Below are positions 5,067 to 14,552 of a stretch of DNA of 14,552 nt, piece after piece. Each line of letters opens with the position of its first letter. Position 1 is the first letter of the stretch. Source of the stretch: an uncultured Ruminococcus sp. (GTDB lineage: Bacteria; Bacillota; Clostridia; Oscillospirales; Ruminococcaceae); assembly GCA_946183385.1 (NCBI GenBank), contig CAMHBN010000017.1, positions 1 through 14,552 on the forward strand, in the 5' to 3' direction. The notes beneath the pieces were generated by a model. The model worked only from the letters and a program-made list of their open reading frames with translations, made no database searches and had not been told where the DNA came from. Both the position numbers and the translations under genes were made by a program.

Positions 5067-5119
5067 AGAGTAAGCGAGTTTACGAGCGTCAGCGCGAATC
5101 GCCCGCGGGGGCTCCCCGC
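5067..5119 (-). repeat. 53-bp dispersed repeat, copy A (overlaps the 3' end of queH)
   Basis: Read on the minus strand from 5119 down, this matches 12821-12873 at 48 of 53 positions without gaps. It opens with a perfect small hairpin (GCGGGG-AGC-CCCCGC) followed by the palindrome GCGATTCGC. The first 28 bases are identical in both copies and all differences fall in the second half. Here the identical half is translated as the last nine residues of QueH. Confidence 0.9.
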
Positions 5120-5715
5120 CGCGAATAGACGCACCCGCAGTAATTCTGCCGATAGAGCCCGTACTGCCGCGACAGCTCTATCGAGTGCTTGTAGCCGTCG
5201 TGCTTCTTGAAGTCGGAGTACAGATACGCCACGCCGCACTCCTCCGCTATCGCGCCGCCGCACTCATTGATGAACGCGCAGTCCTTATGCGGACTTATCG
5301 TCAGCGTGGTCGTGAAGTAGCCGCAACCGAGCTCCCGTGCCTTTTCGCCTGTTCTGCGCAGGCGGTAGGCTATACAGCGCTGACAGCGCTCGCCGCGCTC
5401 GGGCAGGTCTTCGAGTCCCTTTGCCAGCTCGTAGAACGGCGCGGGGTCGTAGTCCTCGTCTATCACCGCGACATCGAGCCCAAGCTCCGATATCAGCCGT
5501 TTCAGCTCGCTCTTGCGGTAGAGGTACTCCTCCTCGGGAGCGATATTCGGGTTGCAGAAGTATACCGTTATCTCGAAGTGCCCGTACAGATACAGCAGGG
5601 TATGGCTGCTGCACGGAGCACAGCACGCATGGAGCATAAGCCGCGGCTTTTCGCCATTTTTCTCCAGCTCCGCGAGCTTGTCGTCGAGCATTTTTCCGTA
5701 GTTCGGCTTCTGCAT
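5089..5715 (-). CDS. queH: Epoxyqueuosine reductase QueH
   Basis: QueH catalyses the last step of queuosine synthesis, reducing epoxyqueuosine in tRNA to queuosine with an iron-sulfur cluster, and is the non-orthologous replacement of QueG. The 208-aa product has the family signature: adjacent cysteines in LHACCAPCSS (C31, C32, C35), YFCNPNI (52-58), the CQRC pair (C111, C114), TTTLTISPHKD (135-145), DFKKHDGYKHSIELS (168-182) and YRQNYCGCVYS (188-198). A GAGGA seven bases before ATG 5713-5715 sits in the end of ricT, only three bases separate the genes, and co-translation is likely. The final residues, RGAPAGDSR, are encoded by the 53-bp repeat, which also supplies the TGA; the conserved part of the family ends just before this, so the enzyme should be active with an acquired tail. 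Confidence 0.96.
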   Translation of the reverse strand: MQKPNYGKMLDDKLAELEKNGEKPRLMLHACCAPCSSHTLLYLYGHFEITVYFCNPNIAPEEEYLYRKSELKRLISELGLDVAVIDEDYDPAPFYELAKGLEDLPERGERCQRCIAYRLRRTGEKARELGCGYFTTTLTISPHKDCAFINECGGAIAEECGVAYLYSDFKKHDGYKHSIELSRQYGLYRQNYCGCVYSRRGAPAGDSR

Positions 5716-5718
5716 GGC

Positions 5719-6582
5719 TTATTCCTCGAGATTTTTCAGAGCCTTAAGCTCCTCCTTGCTGAGCTTGACCTCAACGTCCTTGAGGAGCTTCACCTCGCTC
5801 CTGTCGAGAGTTACGGGCATTTCCGACTTCTCGGTCTTTATCCTGAGCTTGCCCGTGATGAGGTTGGCGTCCTCGACTCTGCCCTTGTCTCCGTCGGGAG
5901 TAACAACGATAGCGCCTACCTTCGGCGTTATCTTCAGCAGCGAGTCATAAGCAGCCTGCTCGTTTTTGAGGCAGCACATCAGTCTGCCGCAGGTGCCAGA
6001 TATCTTCGTCGGGTTCAGCGAGAGTCCCTGCTCCTTTGCCATTTTTATGGACACGGGGTTGAAGTCGCCCATGTGCGCCTTGCAGCAGAATTCCCTGCCG
6101 CAGATGCCCAGTCCGCCGAGTATCTTCGCCTCGTCGCGGACGCCTATCTGGCGCAGCTCTATACGTGTGCGGAACACCGCCGCGAGGTCCTTTACGAGCT
6201 CGCGGAAGTCAACGCGGTTCTCGGCTGTGAAATAGAACAGCATCTTGTTGTTGTCGAAGGTGCACTCTACGTCAACGAGGCTCATTTTCAGCTTGCGGAG
6301 AGCTATCTTCTCCTCGCATATACGGAAAGCGTCCTTCTCGCGCTGCTTGTTCTTCTCGACGGTTCTGAGGTCGTTCGCGTCTGCGAGCCTGATTATCGGC
6401 TTCAGCGGCGAATTTATCGCGTTGTCGTCTATCTGCCTGTTGGCGATGACTACCTCTCCGCACTCGACGCCCCTCACGGTCTCGACTATTGCGCGGTCGC
6501 CCACATTTGCCTTGATATCGCCGGGCGAGAAGTAATACACCTTCCCGACGCTCTTGAAGCGGATACCCACTATCTCTTTCAT
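5719..6582 (-). CDS. ricT: RicT / YaaT, PSP1-domain protein of the Y-complex (RNase Y specificity)
   Basis: The 287-aa product is a full-length member of the PSP1 family. In Bacillus, RicT joins RicA and RicF in an iron-sulfur complex that directs RNase Y to particular mRNAs and influences sporulation, competence and biofilm formation. The PSP1 region (about 60-150) includes ENRVDFRELVKDLA (121-134). The cysteine clusters CGREFCC (C161, C166, C167) and TCGRLMCC (C198, C203, C204) are the proposed Fe-S ligands, and all are present. The start ATG has AAGGAG seven bases upstream. It lies between holB and queH on one strand with short gaps, and the holB-ricT order matches Bacillus holB-yaaT. RicA and RicF are not in the window. 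The pairing with queH is less familiar to me. Confidence 0.95.
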   Translation of the reverse strand: MKEIVGIRFKSVGKVYYFSPGDIKANVGDRAIVETVRGVECGEVVIANRQIDDNAINSPLKPIIRLADANDLRTVEKNKQREKDAFRICEEKIALRKLKMSLVDVECTFDNNKMLFYFTAENRVDFRELVKDLAAVFRTRIELRQIGVRDEAKILGGLGICGREFCCKAHMGDFNPVSIKMAKEQGLSLNPTKISGTCGRLMCCLKNEQAAYDSLLKITPKVGAIVVTPDGDKGRVEDANLITGKLRIKTEKSEMPVTLDRSEVKLLKDVEVKLSKEELKALKNLEE

Positions 6583-6605: not shown

Positions 6606-7589
6606 TCAGCGGACTATTTCTATCATCTCCGCGCTCAGAGCCGCAAGCACGAGCGGCGGATTAACATTTGCCTCCATAGCTCCCCACGCCTTTTCGATAC
6701 TCCTGTGGATATGCACAGCCTGATAAGCCGTGACCATTCCCGCAAGCTTTTCTGCTCCCTCGCGGTAGCAGCCTATCATATCGGCGTCGGGTCTGCGGTT
6801 GAGGACGGCACAGTCGCGCACGAGCTTGTCCGTCATGGAAAGCACCTCGCGGATATCGTTTCTGCTGCTGCCCAGTGAGAACAGTGCCAGATTCAGACCG
6901 TACTCGTCCTTACCTATTATACTATCGGCGAGCCTTTTTGTCAAATCGACGCGTTTACGGAGCTCGGGGTCAACGATGTAGTCGGTGCACATACCGATAT
7001 TCCCGTGAAAGCACTTCACCGCCGCCCTGACCTCACTGCTTGAATGACCGCTCTCAATGAGCGACTGCTCGGCTTCCTCCTCGGTGCAGGGAGAGACTCC
7101 GAAGCACACACAGCGCGAGATTATGGTCGGCAGGAACTCGTACTTCGACTCCGCCGTGAATATGAAGTAGGCGTGGTCGGGGGGCTCCTCGATGAGCTTG
7201 AGGAGCATATTCTGTGTTACGACGCTCATTTTGCGGCAGTCGCGGAAGATATAGACCTTGCGCCCTGTCGCGTTGTTCGGCATCACAGCCGCGTCCCTTA
7301 TCACAGAGCGCGCTATCTTGACGGTATAGCCCTCGAGCTTGCCCTCGGTCGGGACGTATATCACGTCGGGGTGCGACATTGTGCTCACGTTCCTGCACGC
7401 CGCGCACTTACCGCAGGGCTCGCCGCCGACGGGAGCCTCGCACATCAGCTGTGCCGCATAGTGGTCAGCCATGAGCTTTCTGCCGCTGCCCTTTTCACCG
7501 TAAAATATCAGCGAGTGAGCGGTGCGCCCGCTCTCGCGCATACCCACCAGTGTGGCGAGCAGCTGTTTGTTTCCGTATATCTTTTTCAT
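6606..7589 (-). CDS. holB: DNA polymerase III delta' subunit (clamp loader)
   Basis: HolB is part of the clamp-loader complex that places the sliding clamp on DNA. With the start at 7589 the product has 327 aa. It shows an AAA+ fold with a degenerate Walker A (GEKGSGRK, 31-38, RK-L in place of GK-T/S), four zinc-ligand cysteines (C50, C59, C62, C65), NMLLKLIEEPP (127-137) and the SRC arginine-finger motif (158-160), followed by a helical C-terminal collar domain. An in-frame ATG nine codons upstream (7616) is rejected as the start: a good promoter places the transcription start at about that ATG, no ribosome site precedes it, and AGGGTGA (7595-7601) stands properly before 7589. It lies 23 bp upstream of ricT, the classical Firmicutes order. 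Confidence 0.93.
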   Translation of the reverse strand: MKKIYGNKQLLATLVGMRESGRTAHSLIFYGEKGSGRKLMADHYAAQLMCEAPVGGEPCGKCAACRNVSTMSHPDVIYVPTEGKLEGYTVKIARSVIRDAAVMPNNATGRKVYIFRDCRKMSVVTQNMLLKLIEEPPDHAYFIFTAESKYEFLPTIISRCVCFGVSPCTEEEAEQSLIESGHSSSEVRAAVKCFHGNIGMCTDYIVDPELRKRVDLTKRLADSIIGKDEYGLNLALFSLGSSRNDIREVLSMTDKLVRDCAVLNRRPDADMIGCYREGAEKLAGMVTAYQAVHIHRSIEKAWGAMEANVNPPLVLAALSAEMIEIVR

Positions 7590-7621
7590 AAGCTTCACCC
7601 TATCAAGTTCAGTCATTTACC

Positions 7622-7692: not shown

Positions 7693-9015
7693 TTATATTA
7701 CCACATTCACCGTCTCAATGCCGTACCGCTTAAAAATGTCAATGCAGTCTCGGTCTATGACCTCGCCGCTTGCCGCTATCGGCACTGCGGGCGGACACGG
7801 CACCTTCACAGCCGCGCAGATACGTCCCTCAGCCGCTTCGACGGGTATTTCCTCGCTCGGCGAGAAAGCCGCCCCGCGTATGCTCATTGCACATCTCGGG
7901 AGCGCGAGGTCTATGAAGTCCCTGCGAGGCTCGTATCTCCTCGCCGCCGCGAGCGCTCTGCCGAGCGCCGCCGTCAGCCTTTCGTAGTCCGCGGGCGTGT
8001 TCATCGGCGACATCAGCAGTATCACGAGCGAGCTGTCCGCGTACTCGCATTCAACTCCTCCGCGGCGCAGGAGCTCCGCGAGCTCATTGCCGTCATAGCC
8101 GCTCTCCGCCGCCTTCACCGTGATGTGGAGCGGGTCGCCCTCCGCGAATATCAGCCTGTCAGAGAACGTGCGGCGGAGCTTGTCAGCCTCCGCAATATTC
8201 AGCTTCAAGTCGCCGCGTATCCGCTCTGCTATATACGGGCGGCAGAGGTCGAGCGACGCCATTATCAGGTAGGACGGGCTCGTGGACGCGAACAGGCTCA
8301 TGCACTGCCTCAGCACGTCTGCGTACCTCTCCGACGAAGTGTGCAGCATTGCCGCGCCCGTCAGTGCGGGGAGCATCTTATGCGCGGAATCGCAGCAGAT
8401 ATCCGCCCCGAGCGCTATCGGGTGGTGGCTGACGGGCAGGAAGTGCAGGTGCGCTCCGTGGGCGTTGTCCACGAGGAGGGGAGCTCCGTATCTGCGGCAG
8501 ACCGCCGCTATGCCCTGTATATCAGCCATTCTGCCCGTGTAGTCGGGGGAGGTGAGGTACACGCAGGCGTTCGGTATCGCCGCAAGCCTTGCCTCTATGT
8601 CGGCGGGAGCTGCCGTTCCCGAGAGTATGCCGTCGGTGTAGTCGGGCATTACCCATTCCACGTCGAGGTCGAGCAGAGCCGCCGCATTCAGGAACGCGCG
8701 GTGCACGTTGCGGACGGCGACCACCGTCCTGCCCTCCCGAGCCATAGCGGCGAGCATAGCCTGTATGCACAGGGTAGAGCCGCCCGCCGAGTAGAACGTA
8801 TCGGCGGTGTTGTACAGCTCCGCCATGCCGCGCTCGCTCTCACGTATTATGCCGCTTGCCTCGAAAAGGCTGTCCGCGCCGCATATCTCGGTGATGTCGA
8901 GGGCGGTACTCAGCCCGCCGGGGAATATCTCCCTGCCCTTATGACCGGGCATATAGCAGCGCAGGGTGTCCGACGCGGCGTTATTTTTCAGAAAATCGTA
9001 TATAGGTGTATCCAT
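7693..9015 (-). CDS. Orn/Lys/Arg decarboxylase family PLP enzyme (YaaO/SpeA-like)
   Basis: The 440-aa product belongs to the fold-type I PLP decarboxylases acting on basic amino acids. Visible motifs are the N-terminal YMPGHKG (21-27), GGST for phosphate binding (78-81), a histidine that stacks on PLP (VHRAF, H105), LVDNAHGAH (181-189) with the PLP-pyridine aspartate D183, and SAHK with the Schiff-base lysine K213. The length and short C-terminal domain resemble Bacillus YaaO and SpeA rather than the long inducible LdcI/AdiA enzymes. Substrate (arginine, lysine or ornithine) cannot be decided by eye. A GAGG lies six bases before ATG 9013-9015. It precedes holB as yaaO does in Bacillus, but tmk, yaaQ and yaaR are absent here. 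No clear promoter was found in the 110 bp upstream. Confidence 0.9.
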   Translation of the reverse strand: MDTPIYDFLKNNAASDTLRCYMPGHKGREIFPGGLSTALDITEICGADSLFEASGIIRESERGMAELYNTADTFYSAGGSTLCIQAMLAAMAREGRTVVAVRNVHRAFLNAAALLDLDVEWVMPDYTDGILSGTAAPADIEARLAAIPNACVYLTSPDYTGRMADIQGIAAVCRRYGAPLLVDNAHGAHLHFLPVSHHPIALGADICCDSAHKMLPALTGAAMLHTSSERYADVLRQCMSLFASTSPSYLIMASLDLCRPYIAERIRGDLKLNIAEADKLRRTFSDRLIFAEGDPLHITVKAAESGYDGNELAELLRRGGVECEYADSSLVILLMSPMNTPADYERLTAALGRALAAARRYEPRRDFIDLALPRCAMSIRGAAFSPSEEIPVEAAEGRICAAVKVPCPPAVPIAASGEVIDRDCIDIFKRYGIETVNVVI

Positions 9016-9125: not shown

Positions 9126-9419
9126 TCACAAATAGTATCGGAGTATCCTCACGAGCCTGAGCCTTGCCCTTGCCCGCGCTCCGCTGACAGCCTGCGGGCT
9201 CACTCCGAGGAGCTCGGCTATCTCCGTGGTATCCTTATCCTTGAAATAGTATAGCACAATTATCTCCTTTTGTCTCGGAGTAAGCTCATTATTTATAACT
9301 TTTAACAGTATTCTTCTCAGCCGTGCACGGTCGTCGCCGCCGCTGCTGCAGAGTATACCGCGTATTTCCTTGTCGGCTTCGCCTGTAAATGTATCGCTGT
9401 AGCTTTCACGTCTTGGCAC
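9126..9419 (-). CDS. Small sigma-70 region-4 type regulator, 97 aa
   Basis: The second half (about residues 46-93) is a sigma-70 region-4 domain: LTPRQKEIIVLYYFKDKDTT followed by a helix-turn-helix (EIAELLGVSPQAVSGARARA, 66-85) that in sigma factors contacts the -35 element. The first 45 residues are charged and show no region 2, so the protein cannot act as a complete sigma factor alone. Proteins of this shape occur in phage and conjugative-element control, for example the ArpU/DUF1492 group. The start is GTG at 9417-9419, with AGGAGG (9430-9435) ten bases upstream inside the preceding gene. The two genes overlap by 14 bp and should be translationally coupled under the LexA-box promoter. Target promoters are unknown. 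Confidence 0.85.
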   Translation of the reverse strand: MPRRESYSDTFTGEADKEIRGILCSSGGDDRARLRRILLKVINNELTPRQKEIIVLYYFKDKDTTEIAELLGVSPQAVSGARARARLRLVRILRYYL

Positions 9420-9639
9420 TCTGCTCCCGCCTCCTTGCGTAACCTCTCAGAGCGAAGAGCACCTCCTGCATCTGACCGTACTCGCAATACAGCAGCTTTA
9501 TCCTTCTGTCGAGGTCGAGCTCCTTTATCATGCAGATATCGCCCCGCTGCTCCAGAGAGCTCCTTTGCAGCGTCAGCTCGCCGATACGAGCCTTCACGAG
9601 CTCACAGCTTTCCACATAGCCGTTTATCATACTATCCAT
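9406..9639 (-). CDS. Small coiled-coil protein, 77 aa, partner of the sigma-4 regulator
   Basis: The product is almost entirely helix-forming and charged, with heptad-like hydrophobic spacing in two stretches (about 10-30, ELVKARIGELTLQRSSLEQR, and about 38-68, IKELDLDRRIKLLYCEYGQM...), separated by a turn near GDIC (34-37). This predicts a helical hairpin or dimeric coiled coil. ArpU/DUF1492-type regulators often carry such an N-terminal helical part joined to a C-terminal helix-turn-helix, so this gene and the next may be a split version; that is inference. ATG 9637-9639 has AGGAGG (9649-9654) nine bases upstream. It is the first gene behind the SOS-type promoter. No catalytic or metal-binding motif is visible. 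Confidence 0.8.
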   Translation of the reverse strand: MDSMINGYVESCELVKARIGELTLQRSSLEQRGDICMIKELDLDRRIKLLYCEYGQMQEVLFALRGYARRREQSAKT

Positions 9640-9725
9640 ATATCATAGCCTCCTGTCTCTCAGGGAGATTTTATGACCCGCTGCTCTGCCCGACGGGGGA
9701 GGGAGAGAGCGTTCGGCAGCTTTAA

Positions 9726-9737
9726 GAACATTTGTTC
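9726..9737. promoter_or_regulatory. LexA (SOS) box 2, just downstream of the start
   Basis: GAAC-ATTT-GTTC, within the palindrome AGAACATTTGTTCT, is a second exact match to the operator pattern. Its centre is 34 bp from that of box 1, about three helical turns, so two repressor dimers could sit on the same face of the DNA. Confidence 0.82.
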
Positions 9738-9753
9738 TTTTCCTTGTAAGCTT

Positions 9754-9782
9754 ATTATAGAACATCCGTTCTGAAAAGTCAA
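9754..9782 (-). promoter_or_regulatory. SOS-type promoter of the coiled-coil/sigma-4 operon
   Basis: On the minus strand TTGACT (9777-9782) and a perfect TATAAT (9754-9759) are exactly 17 bp apart. One LexA-like box fills the downstream part of the spacer, abutting the -10, and another lies about 15 bp after the predicted start (near 9747). The leader to the first ATG is about 108 nt. Strong hexamers plus two operators suggest tight repression with high induced output. Confidence 0.85.
9760..9771. promoter_or_regulatory. LexA (SOS) box 1, between -35 and -10
   Basis: GAAC-ATCC-GTTC, within AGAACATCCGTTCT, fits the Firmicutes LexA/DinR operator pattern GAAC-N4-GTTC exactly in both half-sites. 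It abuts the -10 hexamer of the sigma-4 operon promoter, so bound repressor would block RNA polymerase. Confidence 0.82.
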
Positions 9783-10021: not shown

Positions 10022-10045
10022 AGAATCCAAATGGAGGGAAATTTT

Positions 10046-12820
10046 ATGCATTTATTCAAAAAAACTCTTGCAGGCGTCTGTGCTTTAGGCATCACAGCTG
10101 CCTGCGCGGCTCAGACGAGCCTCTCGGACGGCACGGAAAAGGCTTACGCCGCCACCAAGGACATCTCCGACACAATGGAATGGGACACGCTCAGAATAGG
10201 CGGAGCGGGCTTCGTTTCGGGCATTGTTACGGGTAAGGAGGAGATGTACCTCCGTACCGACGTAGGCGGTGCCTACAGATACGACTACGACCAGAGCAGA
10301 TGGGTGCAGCTCTTCGGCTTCATCAGCGAGGACGACAGAGGTCTCCTCAGCTGCAAGGGCATCGCTATCGACCCGACCGACGATATGACAGCTTACTTCC
10401 TCTGCGGCTGTGCTTACTTCTCGGACGCAAAGACCGTCATCTACAAGACCACCGACGGCGGCAAGACCTTCACGGGCGTTGACGTCACAGACCAGATACA
10501 GGTGCACGGAAACGGCGACGGTCGTGAGTGCATCGAGCCCATAGCTGTTGACCCCGATAACCCCGACACCATCTATGCGGGCGGCGATGTCACGGGCGGA
10601 AAATCCGCTCTCATCAAGTCCACCGACGGCGGCAAGACGTGGAAGCCCGTTGAGGGCTATGACGAGCTCGGGCTGTTCTCGGGCGAGCTCAAGTACCCCT
10701 CGTGGACTGACCATAAGGTAAGAGGCACCGAGCCCGCTAAGCTCTACAACGAGCAGAACGGTATCGGCTGTGTATACATCGAGGGCGGCAAGGTATATGT
10801 CGGCACCTCTGTAACAGGACAGGCAAATATACACGTTGCAAGCGTCAAGGACGACAAGTTCGAGCCCATCAAGGCTCTCCCCAATGACAATTACCCGCTC
10901 TCCATAACGAGCGACCACAACGGCAACCTCTTCTTCACATATATTGCAGGTCTTGCCTTCATGGGCGGCAAGGGCGGCGCGTATAAGTACAATATCGCGT
11001 CGGGCAAGGCGGAAAAGCTCTCCGTTGCCGACAACGCTATCGGTATGATAGAGGTCGATAAGAACGACCCCGACAAGATGTTCGCACGTACCTGCGGCGT
11101 ATGGTCGGCTCAGTGGTGCGGCGACGAGTGGGTGCAGGACGACCCCGCAACTCCCGAAAATGAGGGCACTATCGCGTGGGGCGACTACTTCTACCGCTCG
11201 GCTGACGGCGGCAAGACTTGGGAGAATATCACTCCCGGTGAGGGTCCCACAGACTACTCGACAGGCACGGGCGTAAAGAAGTTCAAGTCCCTGCCGCTTG
11301 ATACGAACGGCTATGACTGGATATACGGCAAGGCTTGCCACTGGGGAAGCGGTATCCTCATCGACCCGCGTGACCCCGAGGGCGACCGTATCCTCCTCAC
11401 ATCGGGCAACGGCGTCTTCGCCTGCGACAATGCGTGGGACGAAACAGGCATACAGTTCTACTTCCAGCCCGACGGCGTCGAGGAGTGCGTAAGCCTCGAC
11501 TTCTTCAGCACGGCTGACGGTCTCGACCTCTCGGCTATCGGCGACTACGACGGCTTCATCCATGAGAACGTTGACTCCATCCCTCAGCAGTATAACCCCA
11601 ATATGGGCTCGACCTCCGCTATCACGGTCTGCCCGCAGAATACCGACGTCTGGGCAAGAACGGCAGAGGGCGACGGCAACAACACGGGCAGCGCGTTCTA
11701 CACGCTCGACCGCGGCAAGACGTGGAAGGCTTTCACTCCCGCGTGCAGAGGCGGCAAGCTCTCGATAACCGAGCTCTCCAAGGGCAAGTACAGAGTTATA
11801 AATACAAGCTCCAAGGGCGGCGCTTCCTACTCCGACGACTGGGGCGCCACATGGAAGGTATGCGATGGCATAAAGGCTACAAAGGGCGTTTACTCGCTCG
11901 TTGACCCCGAAGACCCCAAGATGGTATATGCGGTAGGCGCTCAGTACAACGAGTACTGGTCGTCTGATATATCCAAGAAGGAGCCTACCTACGACGAGTC
12001 GCACTACTCCTACTTCGTCAGCGAGGACTACGGCGCTACCTTCACAGAGACACGTATCTGCCCCTATAACTGGGAGCTGACATGGAAGTTCGAGTGTACG
12101 GGCGACCCCGCTTACCTCGGCAATGGCACTATCGCTTTCGCAGGAGCTAATCAGGGCGTATTCCTCATCTCCGACAAGGGCAAGACGGTCGAGCACCTCG
12201 AAAACGTATCCTACGCCAAGTGTATCGGCTACGGCGCTCCCGAGAAGGCAGGCGGTCTGAACACGCTGTTCATCTTCGGCAAGCCCGAGAAGGACGACCC
12301 CGAGGGAATCTACCGCTCGACTGACGGCGGCAAGACATGGGTGTGCATCAATACCGACCACCTCTACGGCGGTACGGGCAACGGCAACTACCTCGTGGGC
12401 GATATGGACGAGTTCGGCAAGGTGTATATGTCCACAGTAGGCTGCGGTATCGTTTACGGACAGCTCGCGGGAACTCCCCACGTCACAACGACTAAGGCTT
12501 CAACAACAAAGACCACGACGACAAAGACCACAGCTACTCAGGCTGTATCTACCACGGGTACCGTACAGACGGGCTCATATAATAATCTCCCTGATGTTAC
12601 CCTCCTCGGCGACGCCAACCTCGACGAAAAGGTAACTGTTGCGGACGCGGTGGCTATACTCCAGTCCATCGCCCTCAAGGACAAGTACGCGCTCAAGCCT
12701 CAGGGAGCGGCTAACGCTGACTGCTGCGACCCGGGTGACGGTATCACAGCCAAGGACGCGCTCGCGATACAGAAGCTCGACGCACACGAGATAGACGCAC
12801 TGCCTGAGACAACCAAGTAA
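10046..12820 (+). CDS. Secreted GH74 xyloglucanase with type-I dockerin
   Basis: The 924-aa product is a cellulosomal endo-xyloglucanase candidate. Residues 1-35 form a signal peptide (KK, hydrophobic core 8-22, likely cleavage after AYA at 33-35). The GH74 part (about 45-810) is the family's two seven-bladed propellers: RTDVGGAYRYD (70-80) contains the proposed catalytic base D72, and SAIGDYDGF (496-504) the proposed acid D500. Asp-box motifs of the STDGGKTW type recur about eight times (near 135, 192, 385, 553, 596, 659, 708 and 758). A Thr-rich linker (about 813-845) leads to a dockerin (about 852-915): loop 1 is DANLDEKVTVAD (856-867), loop 2 the extended DCCDPGDGITAKD (892-904). The dockerin would dock the enzyme on a scaffoldin cohesin outside the cell. 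The start is 10046 because GGAGGG lies seven bases before it. A repeat begins directly after the TAA. Confidence 0.96.
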   Translation: MHLFKKTLAGVCALGITAACAAQTSLSDGTEKAYAATKDISDTMEWDTLRIGGAGFVSGIVTGKEEMYLRTDVGGAYRYDYDQSRWVQLFGFISEDDRGLLSCKGIAIDPTDDMTAYFLCGCAYFSDAKTVIYKTTDGGKTFTGVDVTDQIQVHGNGDGRECIEPIAVDPDNPDTIYAGGDVTGGKSALIKSTDGGKTWKPVEGYDELGLFSGELKYPSWTDHKVRGTEPAKLYNEQNGIGCVYIEGGKVYVGTSVTGQANIHVASVKDDKFEPIKALPNDNYPLSITSDHNGNLFFTYIAGLAFMGGKGGAYKYNIASGKAEKLSVADNAIGMIEVDKNDPDKMFARTCGVWSAQWCGDEWVQDDPATPENEGTIAWGDYFYRSADGGKTWENITPGEGPTDYSTGTGVKKFKSLPLDTNGYDWIYGKACHWGSGILIDPRDPEGDRILLTSGNGVFACDNAWDETGIQFYFQPDGVEECVSLDFFSTADGLDLSAIGDYDGFIHENVDSIPQQYNPNMGSTSAITVCPQNTDVWARTAEGDGNNTGSAFYTLDRGKTWKAFTPACRGGKLSITELSKGKYRVINTSSKGGASYSDDWGATWKVCDGIKATKGVYSLVDPEDPKMVYAVGAQYNEYWSSDISKKEPTYDESHYSYFVSEDYGATFTETRICPYNWELTWKFECTGDPAYLGNGTIAFAGANQGVFLISDKGKTVEHLENVSYAKCIGYGAPEKAGGLNTLFIFGKPEKDDPEGIYRSTDGGKTWVCINTDHLYGGTGNGNYLVGDMDEFGKVYMSTVGCGIVYGQLAGTPHVTTTKASTTKTTTTKTTATQAVSTTGTVQTGSYNNLPDVTLLGDANLDEKVTVADAVAILQSIALKDKYALKPQGAANADCCDPGDGITAKDALAIQKLDAHEIDALPETTK

Positions 12821-13100: not shown

Positions 13101-14552
13101 TTACATAGTCTGAATAATATCCCACAGCTCACGGGCTGTGTCAAGGCTTATGCCCGCGGTCGCGGCGAGCTCCTCGGGAGTCGCTTTCAGCAGGTTCGCC
13201 TTCGTCTTGTAGCGTATCATTATCTTCGCGGCTTTCTTCTCGCCCACGCCCTTGACCGTGAGAAGCTCCGAGCTGTAGGTCTTTTTCTTGTGCTTTTGGT
13301 GCATGAAGCTCACGGAATAGCGGTGCACCTCGTCCTGTATGCGCGTCACGAGGTCAAATACCGCCCTCAGCTCGTTTATCTGTATCTCACGCCCGCCCTC
13401 GGCTATGGCACGGGTGCGGTGCTTGTCGTCCTTGACCATTCCGAACAGCGGTATATCGAGCCCGAGCTCCCGCAGAAGCGGCTCTACAGCGTGCACGTGA
13501 CCCGTGCCTCCGTCAAGGAGAATGAGGTCGGGCTTGCGGCTGAAATACTCGTCGCCGTCCTGATTTACAAGGTGGGTCAGGCGGCGTTTCAGAACCTCCC
13601 GCATACTGCCGTAGTCGTTCTGGTACTCCTGCTCCTTGATGTTGAAGCGCTTGTACGCCTTTTTGAGCGGTCTGCCGTCCTCGAAGACGACCATTCCCGC
13701 GACCATTGATTCCGACGACAGGTTCGAGATATCATACGCCTCGATATAGCGCGGCGGACGCTCCAGCCCGAGACTTTTCGCAAGCTGCTCCAGCGCGATG
13801 ACCTCCTTGCCCGTGCGGTCGTTTCTCAGCGCGGCATACTCCGCGGAATTGCTCTTGGCGAGCCTCATCAGCTCGGGGAGCCTTCCCCTCTGCGGCTGGT
13901 GGAGCTTCACGTTCCTGCCCGCCTGCTTTGTGAGCATTTCCTCTATGAGAGCGCCGTCCTCGGGGATGTGGTCAACGGTGACTGTCTTCGGGACATCGCT
14001 CCGCCCGTGGTAGAACTGCGCAAGGAAGAGGCTGAGGATATCCTCGCCGTCCCCGGGCTTGTCAAACTCGAATACAGCCTTGTCGTATAGCCTGTTCTCG
14101 CGGTACATCAGCACCGAGACGAATATGCCGTCGTGAGCCTCTGCAATGCCTATCACGTCTGTGGAGTCCACGCCGCTGTTGATTATCTTCTGCTTCTCGG
14201 CGGCTTTTCTGACGGCAGCTATCCTGTCACGGAGCATCGCCGCCTTCTCGAAGTCGAGAGCCTCTGCCGCTTCGTTCATCTCAGTCTCCATACGCTCGAC
14301 GGACTGGGCGCTCCCCGACTTGATGAACTCCACCGCCTCGTCAACTGCGGCGCGGTAGGTGTCCTTGTCTATCTTGCCGCGGCACACGCCCATACAGAGC
14401 TTGATATGGTAGTTGAGGCAGGGGCGCTCCCTGCCGAAATCCTGCGGGAATTTACGCCTGCACGTCGGCAGCATAAACACGCGGTTAGCCTCGTTGACGG
14501 CTTCCTTCGTGACCGAGCCGCTCGTATACGGTCCGAGGTAGGTCCCGCCCGC
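13101..14552 (-). CDS. uvrC: Excinuclease ABC subunit C (N-terminus outside the window)
   Basis: UvrC makes the two incisions in nucleotide excision repair with UvrA and UvrB. The frame stays open to the window edge, so 483 residues are visible and roughly 120-140 are missing; the apparent GTG start at 14480 is internal, since the upstream codons read GGTYLGPYTSGSVTKEAVNE, the end of the GIY-YIG nuclease domain. In visible numbering there follow the cysteine-bearing TCRRKFPQDFGRERPCLNYH region (30-49), a UVR domain that binds UvrB (about 82-121), the RNase H-like 5' nuclease with EAYDISN (D274), LLDGGTGH (D347) and DEVHRYS (H410) as its catalytic set, and a C-terminal double helix-hairpin-helix (TVKGVGEKKA and the following repeat, about 432-480). 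Its 3' end abuts a palindromic repeat. Confidence 0.97.
   Translation of the reverse strand, partial: AGGTYLGPYTSGSVTKEAVNEANRVFMLPTCRRKFPQDFGRERPCLNYHIKLCMGVCRGKIDKDTYRAAVDEAVEFIKSGSAQSVERMETEMNEAAEALDFEKAAMLRDRIAAVRKAAEKQKIINSGVDSTDVIGIAEAHDGIFVSVLMYRENRLYDKAVFEFDKPGDGEDILSLFLAQFYHGRSDVPKTVTVDHIPEDGALIEEMLTKQAGRNVKLHQPQRGRLPELMRLAKSNSAEYAALRNDRTGKEVIALEQLAKSLGLERPPRYIEAYDISNLSSESMVAGMVVFEDGRPLKKAYKRFNIKEQEYQNDYGSMREVLKRRLTHLVNQDGDEYFSRKPDLILLDGGTGHVHAVEPLLRELGLDIPLFGMVKDDKHRTRAIAEGGREIQINELRAVFDLVTRIQDEVHRYSVSFMHQKHKKKTYSSELLTVKGVGEKKAAKIMIRYKTKANLLKATPEELAATAGISLDTARELWDIIQTM

Follow-up and report, generated by a model that had tools for sequence, protein, structure and literature searches.

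The window, the whole stretch of 14,552 nucleotides analysed here, is contig C17 of a Ruminococcus genome of 2,115,161 bases in 334 contigs that is 75% complete. Its minus strand carries a near-consensus promoter, TTGACT-17-TATAAT (9782-9754; 11 of 12 matches), the spacer of which holds a LexA-type operator (GAACATCCGTTC; minus strand GAACGGATGTTC; 9760-9771) abutting the TATAAT on its 5' side. A second LexA-type operator (GAACATTTGTTC; minus strand GAACAAATGTTC; 9726-9737) lies just past the transcription start inferred from the -10 box, at about +10 to +21 and 34 bp start-to-start from the first. The inferred 5' leader of about 108 nt (9640-9747, minus strand) contains a CAAGGAA tract after the promoter and ahead of operator 2. 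It is followed on the same strand by a gene for a 77-aa protein (9406-9639, ATG start) and, overlapping it by 14 nt, a gene for a 97-aa sigma-70 region 4 protein (9126-9419, GTG start). The two exact boxes, the near-consensus promoter and the overlapping gene pair had been claimed in an earlier note on this DNA, and all are found where it placed them. The operators are the only exact GAAC-N4-GTTC sequences in the window; four other sites have one mismatch, and the resulting six boxes with at most one mismatch compare with a shuffle mean of 5.14 and are reached in 96 of 200 shuffles. An Rfam scan of the window gave no match at the gathering threshold. A leader peptide was considered and rejected, the ORF of the window's own leader being absent from most of the relatives' leaders compared.

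The 97-aa protein matches Pfam Sigma70_r4_2 at 5.3e-13 and UPF0122 at 29.4 bits, above the Pfam cut-off of 22.7, and it covers only the region 4 part of the sigma models in Pfam and NCBIfam. Sigma region 2 finds no Pfam or NCBIfam match in this protein or in its 77-aa partner, of which 16 members were scanned. A region 4 domain without region 2 could touch promoters and the polymerase flap and could not replace a sigma factor. The 97-aa protein therefore cannot be a sigma factor alone, and an accessory role, as activator or competitor, is most likely. Redirection of RNA polymerase, put forward in the earlier note, would be a conjectural role for a protein of this kind. The nearest folds of its AlphaFold model (pLDDT 82) include region 4 of SigF and E. 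coli sigmaE on -35 DNA (TM 0.89 by target), with Foldseek E-values all above 0.001; by sequence, its nearest solved relatives are the sigma factors 6pfj and 6pfv (WhiG) at E 3e-6.

The 77-aa protein belongs to no known family and is predicted to form a helical hairpin, with helices at residues 2-32 and 37-76 of an AlphaFold model of mean pLDDT 92, a prediction that agrees with its earlier labelling as a coiled coil. Pfam assigns it to none of its families above cut-off; any one Pfam or NCBIfam family is matched by at most two of the 16 members and never at an E-value better than 0.002, and the fold matches of the model all fall short of E 0.001. The best PDB profile match is the coiled-coil chain Striatin-3 (E 8.8e-4). 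Homologues occur in Ruminococcus and other Oscillospiraceae/Clostridiales. Kinship with DUF1492, ArpU and RinA, which are coiled-coil proteins, was also considered and finds no support in Pfam or NCBIfam. A PADLOC search for defence systems returned no match for either small protein. The 14-nt overlap of the two genes is kept in 52 of 74 loci (one hairpin gene, that of L042, is clipped in this count), which suggests translational coupling.

When 100 genomes of the genus were searched with the 97-aa protein, 98 matched at E <= 1e-3, some of them weakly; the counts below refer to 90 loci at E <= 3e-19, and the other, weaker matches are left out, among them G046 (1.3e-17), where the pair stands with two exact boxes. 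The locus belongs to the core of the genus. In one genome, 95% complete, the 97-aa protein finds at best fragments with internal stop codons (G005:C151).

Downstream of the pair in the window, and in the same orientation on the minus strand, lie a gene of the Orn/Lys/Arg decarboxylase family (7693-9015), which we take to be YaaO-like and which is probably co-transcribed with the pair, holB for the DNA polymerase III delta' subunit (6606-7616), a PSP1-domain gene (5719-6582), presumably ricT/yaaT-like, and queH (5089-5715). Upstream, a gene for a 929-aa BNR-repeat protein (10031-12820) diverges on the opposite strand, and beyond it uvrC (13101-14552) runs off the window end. The BNR-repeat protein has an apparent dockerin-like C-terminus by eye, and similar genes stand upstream in 18 of the 90 loci. 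A gap of 110 nt, in which no terminator-like site is listed, separates the 97-aa gene of the window from the decarboxylase gene; in relatives with the decarboxylase directly downstream this gap is mostly 8-15 nt. Either uvrC or the decarboxylase gene starts at most 30 nt past the stop codon of the 97-aa gene in 70 of the 90 loci; with up to 120 nt allowed the number rises to 78 (68 decarboxylase, 10 uvrC). The first reference gene downstream is uvrC in 12 of the 90 loci and holB in one, and five loci gave no such gene, in a count that uses only a few reference proteins and in which 30 of the 90 loci reach just about 1.5 kb beyond the match. The pair probably heads an operon and would be co-transcribed with the decarboxylase gene, holB and the ricT-like gene; queH may belong to it as well. 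The locus had previously been described as a two-gene module with targets elsewhere, a description that gives way to one of a core genus locus standing mostly directly before uvrC or the YaaO-like gene, with holB and ricT after. Given this position, part of the SOS-induced set probably lies directly downstream.

The boxes are conserved together with the promoter. In the 86 loci with at least 400 bp of upstream sequence (L091 of genome G086 and three others are excluded as short), an exact box occurs within 450 bp in 66 and two or more in 29, against a mean of 0.44 and a maximum of 4 loci of 86 in mononucleotide shuffles, which here and in the non-genus counts below preserve base composition only. 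The earlier note had proposed that damage control would be contradicted if close homologues had no boxes ahead of them; the 66 loci with an exact box show the opposite. The promoter pattern TTGAC-N17..19-TATAAT/TACAAT is present within 450 bp in 80 of the 86 loci, and in 65 a box with at most one mismatch starts inside the promoter. The order TTGAC, box, TATAAT, box recurs in most of the 90 loci; box pairs 20-45 bp apart, each with at most one mismatch and at least one of them exact, are found in 63 of the 90, and in 53 the distance is 33-37 bp. The CAAGGAA tract follows the -10 box within 40 nt in 48 of the 82 loci with a promoter match; in the leaders of relatives it is often accompanied by a TCTCCCTAA stretch ahead of the ribosome-binding site. 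A single exact box means little, because the window's own genome has 14 such sites (against 72 for the reversed pattern, taken as control), and they lie mostly inside ORFs: this is the case for 8 of the 12 outside the window. None of these 12 sites precedes a recognised repair gene, as judged by eye.

Presence of the box goes together with presence of lexA. The own genome encodes a LexA over the TIGR00498 cut-off (177.5 bits), as do 91 of the 100 genus genomes when the same family cut-off is applied. Where the genome has lexA over the cut-off, 65 of 78 loci carry an exact box, versus one of eight where it does not (Fisher p 9.9e-5, uncorrected for kinship), and a box with at most one mismatch is present in 71 of 78 versus two of eight. 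Sorting the genomes more strictly, by a full-length and high-scoring lexA, gives 64 of 74 versus 2 of 12 for the exact box (p 2.7e-6, again with kinship uncorrected) and 70 of 74 versus 3 of 12 with one mismatch allowed. The stricter sorting also sets aside G042, G053, G084 and G093, which have a lower-scoring full-length lexA over the cut-off, and G069, the lexA match of which is cut at a contig end. Of the 78 loci with lexA over the cut-off, 13 have no exact box and seven not even one with a single mismatch.

Of the 12 genomes placed by the stricter sorting among those without a full-length, high-scoring lexA, eight (G013, G017, G042, G063, G065, G074, G084 and G093) have a CTACAAT-ended promoter with other letters at the box, and in six of them GTTGA takes the position of the left arm; G086 has the CTACAAT form too, in a shorter upstream sequence. 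Three of the eight (G042, G084 and G093) carry the lower-scoring lexA-family protein over the cut-off. The changed operator often reads GTTGA, then TTCTAC and GTAGAA (L035, L086, L087, L091, L092, L097, L098, L100 and L103). In genomes without a canonical lexA the operator looks altered as if a different repressor had taken over. The other four of the 12 depart from this picture: G008, although 99% complete, gives no lexA match and yet carries three exact boxes, G069 retains an exact box, and G019 and G068 have neither an exact box nor the altered form. The genomes that lack the box and have hardly any lexA or none may represent one lineage, and because they largely share one altered promoter, the association between box and lexA could rest on few evolutionary events. 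This group, with little or no lexA and a promoter that has been kept, makes operator replacement directly testable.

The distribution of the box over other genes was surveyed in 30 genus genomes, the own genome and others at least 95% complete. No exact box occurs within 500 bp of recA in 29 loci, four of which have one-mismatch sites, or within 500 bp of lexA in 25 correctly oriented canonical loci, five of which have such sites (L216, L221 and L223 are omitted as misoriented, L237 and L238 as non-canonical). The regulon is unusual in this respect. As recA stands close behind another gene, presumably prmC, and as, by eye, the lexA of the own genome runs into a murC-like gene with an overlap, distant promoters are possible for both. 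Of 30 loci with Y-family polymerase genes, 12 show an exact box within 300 bp and 18 a box with at most one mismatch, and uvrB has no exact box within 300 bp in 30 loci and a degenerate GAAN-N4-GTTC site within 140 bp in 10 of them; the counts within 300 bp are rough, the start sites having been assigned by a simple rule. These polymerase boxes and degenerate uvrB sites indicate that LexA probably also reaches repair genes directly, and they weaken a version of the two-tier SOS response, also considered, that has no direct repair targets. At uvrB, for example in L289, L299, L308, L310 and L311, the promoter is of the extended -10 type and has no good -35 box, and a GAAA-N4-GTTC site directly precedes it, just ahead of the -35 region. 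A role of this site as an activator site for the pair is less favoured, as the site is missing in G063, a genome without full-length lexA, and present in G008, which has the boxes and no lexA match; a weak LexA site would be the simpler reading.

A scan of GTDB for the composite pattern TTGAC-N6-GAAC-N4-GTTC-TATAAT gave at least 117 stretches, 80 of which were examined as loci. Among the matches listed, these 80 loci have a Y-family polymerase gene within 1.5 kb in 16 cases, lexA in one and recA in one, the pair module in eight (seven by the 97-aa profile and one by the 77-aa profile only), and none of these gene classes assigned in 54. The 18 loci of 80 with Y-family polymerase, lexA or recA among the matches listed show that the pattern marks known SOS genes. 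In six loci on contigs of Lachnospiraceae and other Clostridia (L314, L334, L338, L349, L365 and L387), a LexA-type promoter is followed by a sigma-factor-like gene and then an apparent DUF262-type gene, as seen by eye; Pfam finds sigma regions 2 and 3 in the sigma-like gene of L349 and only a weak helix-turn-helix in that of L334.

Control of the pair by LexA within the SOS response is very likely in view of the conserved boxes and their association with lexA. This part of the earlier interpretation is well supported: the operators are conserved within a conserved promoter, the own genome has a lexA, box and lexA occur together, and the same promoter and box pattern also precedes genes of Y-family polymerases as well as one lexA and one recA.

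Relatives of the pair are not confined to the genus. In the same family the 97-aa profile matches 34 of 197 genomes at E <= 1e-12, three of them genus members, and 27 of the 31 matching non-genus genomes yielded loci; with L108 dropped for its short upstream sequence, 14 of 26 non-genus region 4 loci have an exact box within 600 bp, against a shuffle mean of 0.14. At the order level the 77-aa profile matches 13 of 394 genomes, two of them in the genus, in a search that is weak for so short a protein; an exact box lies within 300 bp in 6 of 11 non-genus loci, with a shuffle mean of 0.045. Outside the genus the neighbours vary, and what recurs is the box with the small pair; the decarboxylase gene is found downstream of the pair or divergent from it. 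A regulator with a WYL domain, a class that includes the DNA-damage regulator PafBC, stands beside the pair in L115, L122, L132 and L241-L243 (by Pfam for L242, by eye for the rest). Near the pair or a look-alike there is an XRE repressor in L119, L125, L129, L131, L133, L244 and L251 and an IrrE-like peptidase in L117, L125, L131 and L251 (by Pfam for L125, by eye for the rest); such genes are arranged as in another type of switch that senses damage. The weakly matching small protein of L251 is near a terminase-like gene and has no region 4 gene directly beside it, by eye.

Seven genus genomes contain second region 4 proteins with 35-41% identity, eight in all (G027, G038 twice, G050, G055, G081, G087 and G089). 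Five of them stand beside a holin or endolysin gene (L431 and L435-L438) and three among tail-type genes only (L432-L434); Pfam was applied to the clusters of L431 and L435, where it finds Phage_holin_4_1 in both, Prophage_tail and GH25 in L431 and M23 in L435, and the remaining clusters were judged by eye. A protein identical to the second copy of G081 is encoded on an IMG/VR contig among tail and holin genes; a second query had no match there. The similarity between a prophage copy and the window protein, 40% over 98 residues, includes the N-terminal motif. A tblastn search with the 77-aa protein of the window reveals no hairpin gene next to the prophage copies. The window's own pair has no relative in the phage records searched and the region 4 profile A2 no match in IMG/VR, so the pair does not look like a phage gene. 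The own genome, as far as its 75% completeness goes, has one region 4 copy only. As the earlier note had observed, no structural phage genes adjoin the pair: none of the eight window proteins scanned belongs to a phage structural family. Its suggestion of a link to a mobile element gains indirect support, in that second copies in related genomes adjoin prophage-type genes.

Taken together, we consider it moderately probable that the two proteins are LexA-silenced, damage-induced operon leaders that act together as a region 4-type transcription regulator. LexA bound to the two operators, in the promoter spacer and just past the start, would silence a strong sigma-A-type promoter, and DNA damage, through self-cleavage of LexA, would allow the operon to be transcribed. 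The transcript would run from the 77-aa hairpin and the 97-aa region 4 protein to the YaaO-like decarboxylase, holB and ricT, and in some relatives uvrC would come first after the pair. The region 4 domain would contact a -35-like DNA element, the RNA polymerase flap or both, with the hairpin as its partner. A regulator function is plausible because the 97-aa protein has a Pfam region 4 match, region 4 of sigma factors is among the folds nearest to its model, and the overlap of the two genes is conserved. A more specific proposal, which we advance tentatively and with considerable doubt, is that the region 4 protein and an obligate helical-hairpin partner constitute an undescribed two-protein regulator that shares its origin with the prophage-borne region 4 protein and now forms a core second tier of the SOS response in Ruminococcus and its relatives; LexA would release the pair, and the pair would read further promoters, substituting for or reinforcing the recognition of the -35 element.

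The small proteins might instead act only locally, for example as autoregulators, in a repair and replication SOS operon the pay-off of which is uvrC, the decarboxylase, holB and ricT. The 70 loci of 90 with uvrC or the decarboxylase gene within 30 nt, the 12 of 90 in which uvrC is the first reference gene downstream, and the predicted LexA-controlled operon from uvrB to uvrC in the accessible part of a report on C. acetobutylicum (PMC3828012) all favour such a role. However, other genera keep the pair and the box with changed neighbours, the decarboxylase gene being divergent or not found nearby, which is not expected if the pair only tuned this operon, and even within the genus no reference gene was found downstream in five of the 90 loci. 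We therefore regard a purely local role as unlikely. Damage control itself could be illusory if the boxes were there by chance or were bound by something else, as the 14 exact sites of the own genome, with 8 of the 12 outside the window inside ORFs, might suggest; two boxes at near-fixed spacing and in a fixed promoter position, conserved and associated with lexA, make this very improbable.

Two further alternatives were considered. The core pair might be a phage-related regulator that responds to DNA damage by switching on the lysis or late promoters of prophages resident in the genome, since eight second copies stand beside prophage-type genes, five of them by a holin or endolysin gene, an IMG/VR contig carries the G081 protein in identical form with tail and holin genes around it, and the likeness to the window protein extends to the N-terminal motif (40% over 98 residues). 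We find this quite unlikely, as tblastn detects no hairpin gene beside the prophage copies, the own genome, 75% complete, has a single copy, and neither the window pair in the phage records nor profile A2 in IMG/VR finds a relative. The hairpin might also bind region 4 in the manner of an anti-sigma factor, so that, under damage, the pair would lower housekeeping transcription or restrain division. Sigma factors are bound by RsiG, FlgM and AsiA, the gene for the small, all-helical hairpin overlaps that of the region 4 protein, and the 97-aa protein has WhiG in complex with RsiG (6pfj, 6pfv) among its closest matches in both sequence and fold. Against this, the hairpin has no fold match as good as E 0.001, and the c-di-GMP motif carried by RsiG is not seen in it by eye; we hold such a module to be distinctly improbable.

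The locus would be a conserved and apparently undescribed SOS operon, headed by an unusual gene pair. It places an uncharacterised transcription-type factor under an apparent DNA-damage switch in a major gut and rumen genus. Should the pair be a second-tier regulator, the response to damage would extend beyond the LexA boxes, and that part of it would escape any search restricted to LexA sites.

Our search of the literature found no described LexA regulon for Ruminococcus. The SOS meta-regulon of the gut, in the accessible part of its description, comprises nine known and three new SOS COGs (HsdS, MraZ and CodV), and this part lists no region 4 protein or hairpin partner among the SOS COGs; for the gut sites the study employed LexA of B. 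subtilis (PMC3998124). For C. acetobutylicum, the predicted LexA-controlled operon extends beyond uvrC, according to the portion of the report at hand (PMC3828012). The locus resembles the LexA-controlled SOS promoters of Firmicutes in the operators within the promoter region, the presence of lexA and the sharing of the box with Y-family polymerase genes (12 of 30 genus loci), and it differs in that recA and lexA of Ruminococcus are without the exact box. Like YlxM/p13 (UPF0122) and phage region 4-type regulators, the 97-aa protein is small and has a region 4-like helix-turn-helix. Its score of 30.1 bits is below the cut-off of 80 bits of NCBIfam NF045758 for YlxM, and unlike YlxM it has an N-terminal motif of its own, an overlapping hairpin gene and LexA-type operators. 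SigO-RsoA of B. subtilis is a two-subunit sigma factor, and the Ruminococcus pair is similar in consisting of two small proteins from adjacent genes, one with region 4, but its 77-aa partner has no match to sigma region 2. Bacteriocin sigma factors of the C. perfringens UviA type are LexA-linked; the likeness is that of an SOS-linked factor related to sigma factors, whereas the Ruminococcus protein has region 4 only and belongs to a core locus of its genus.
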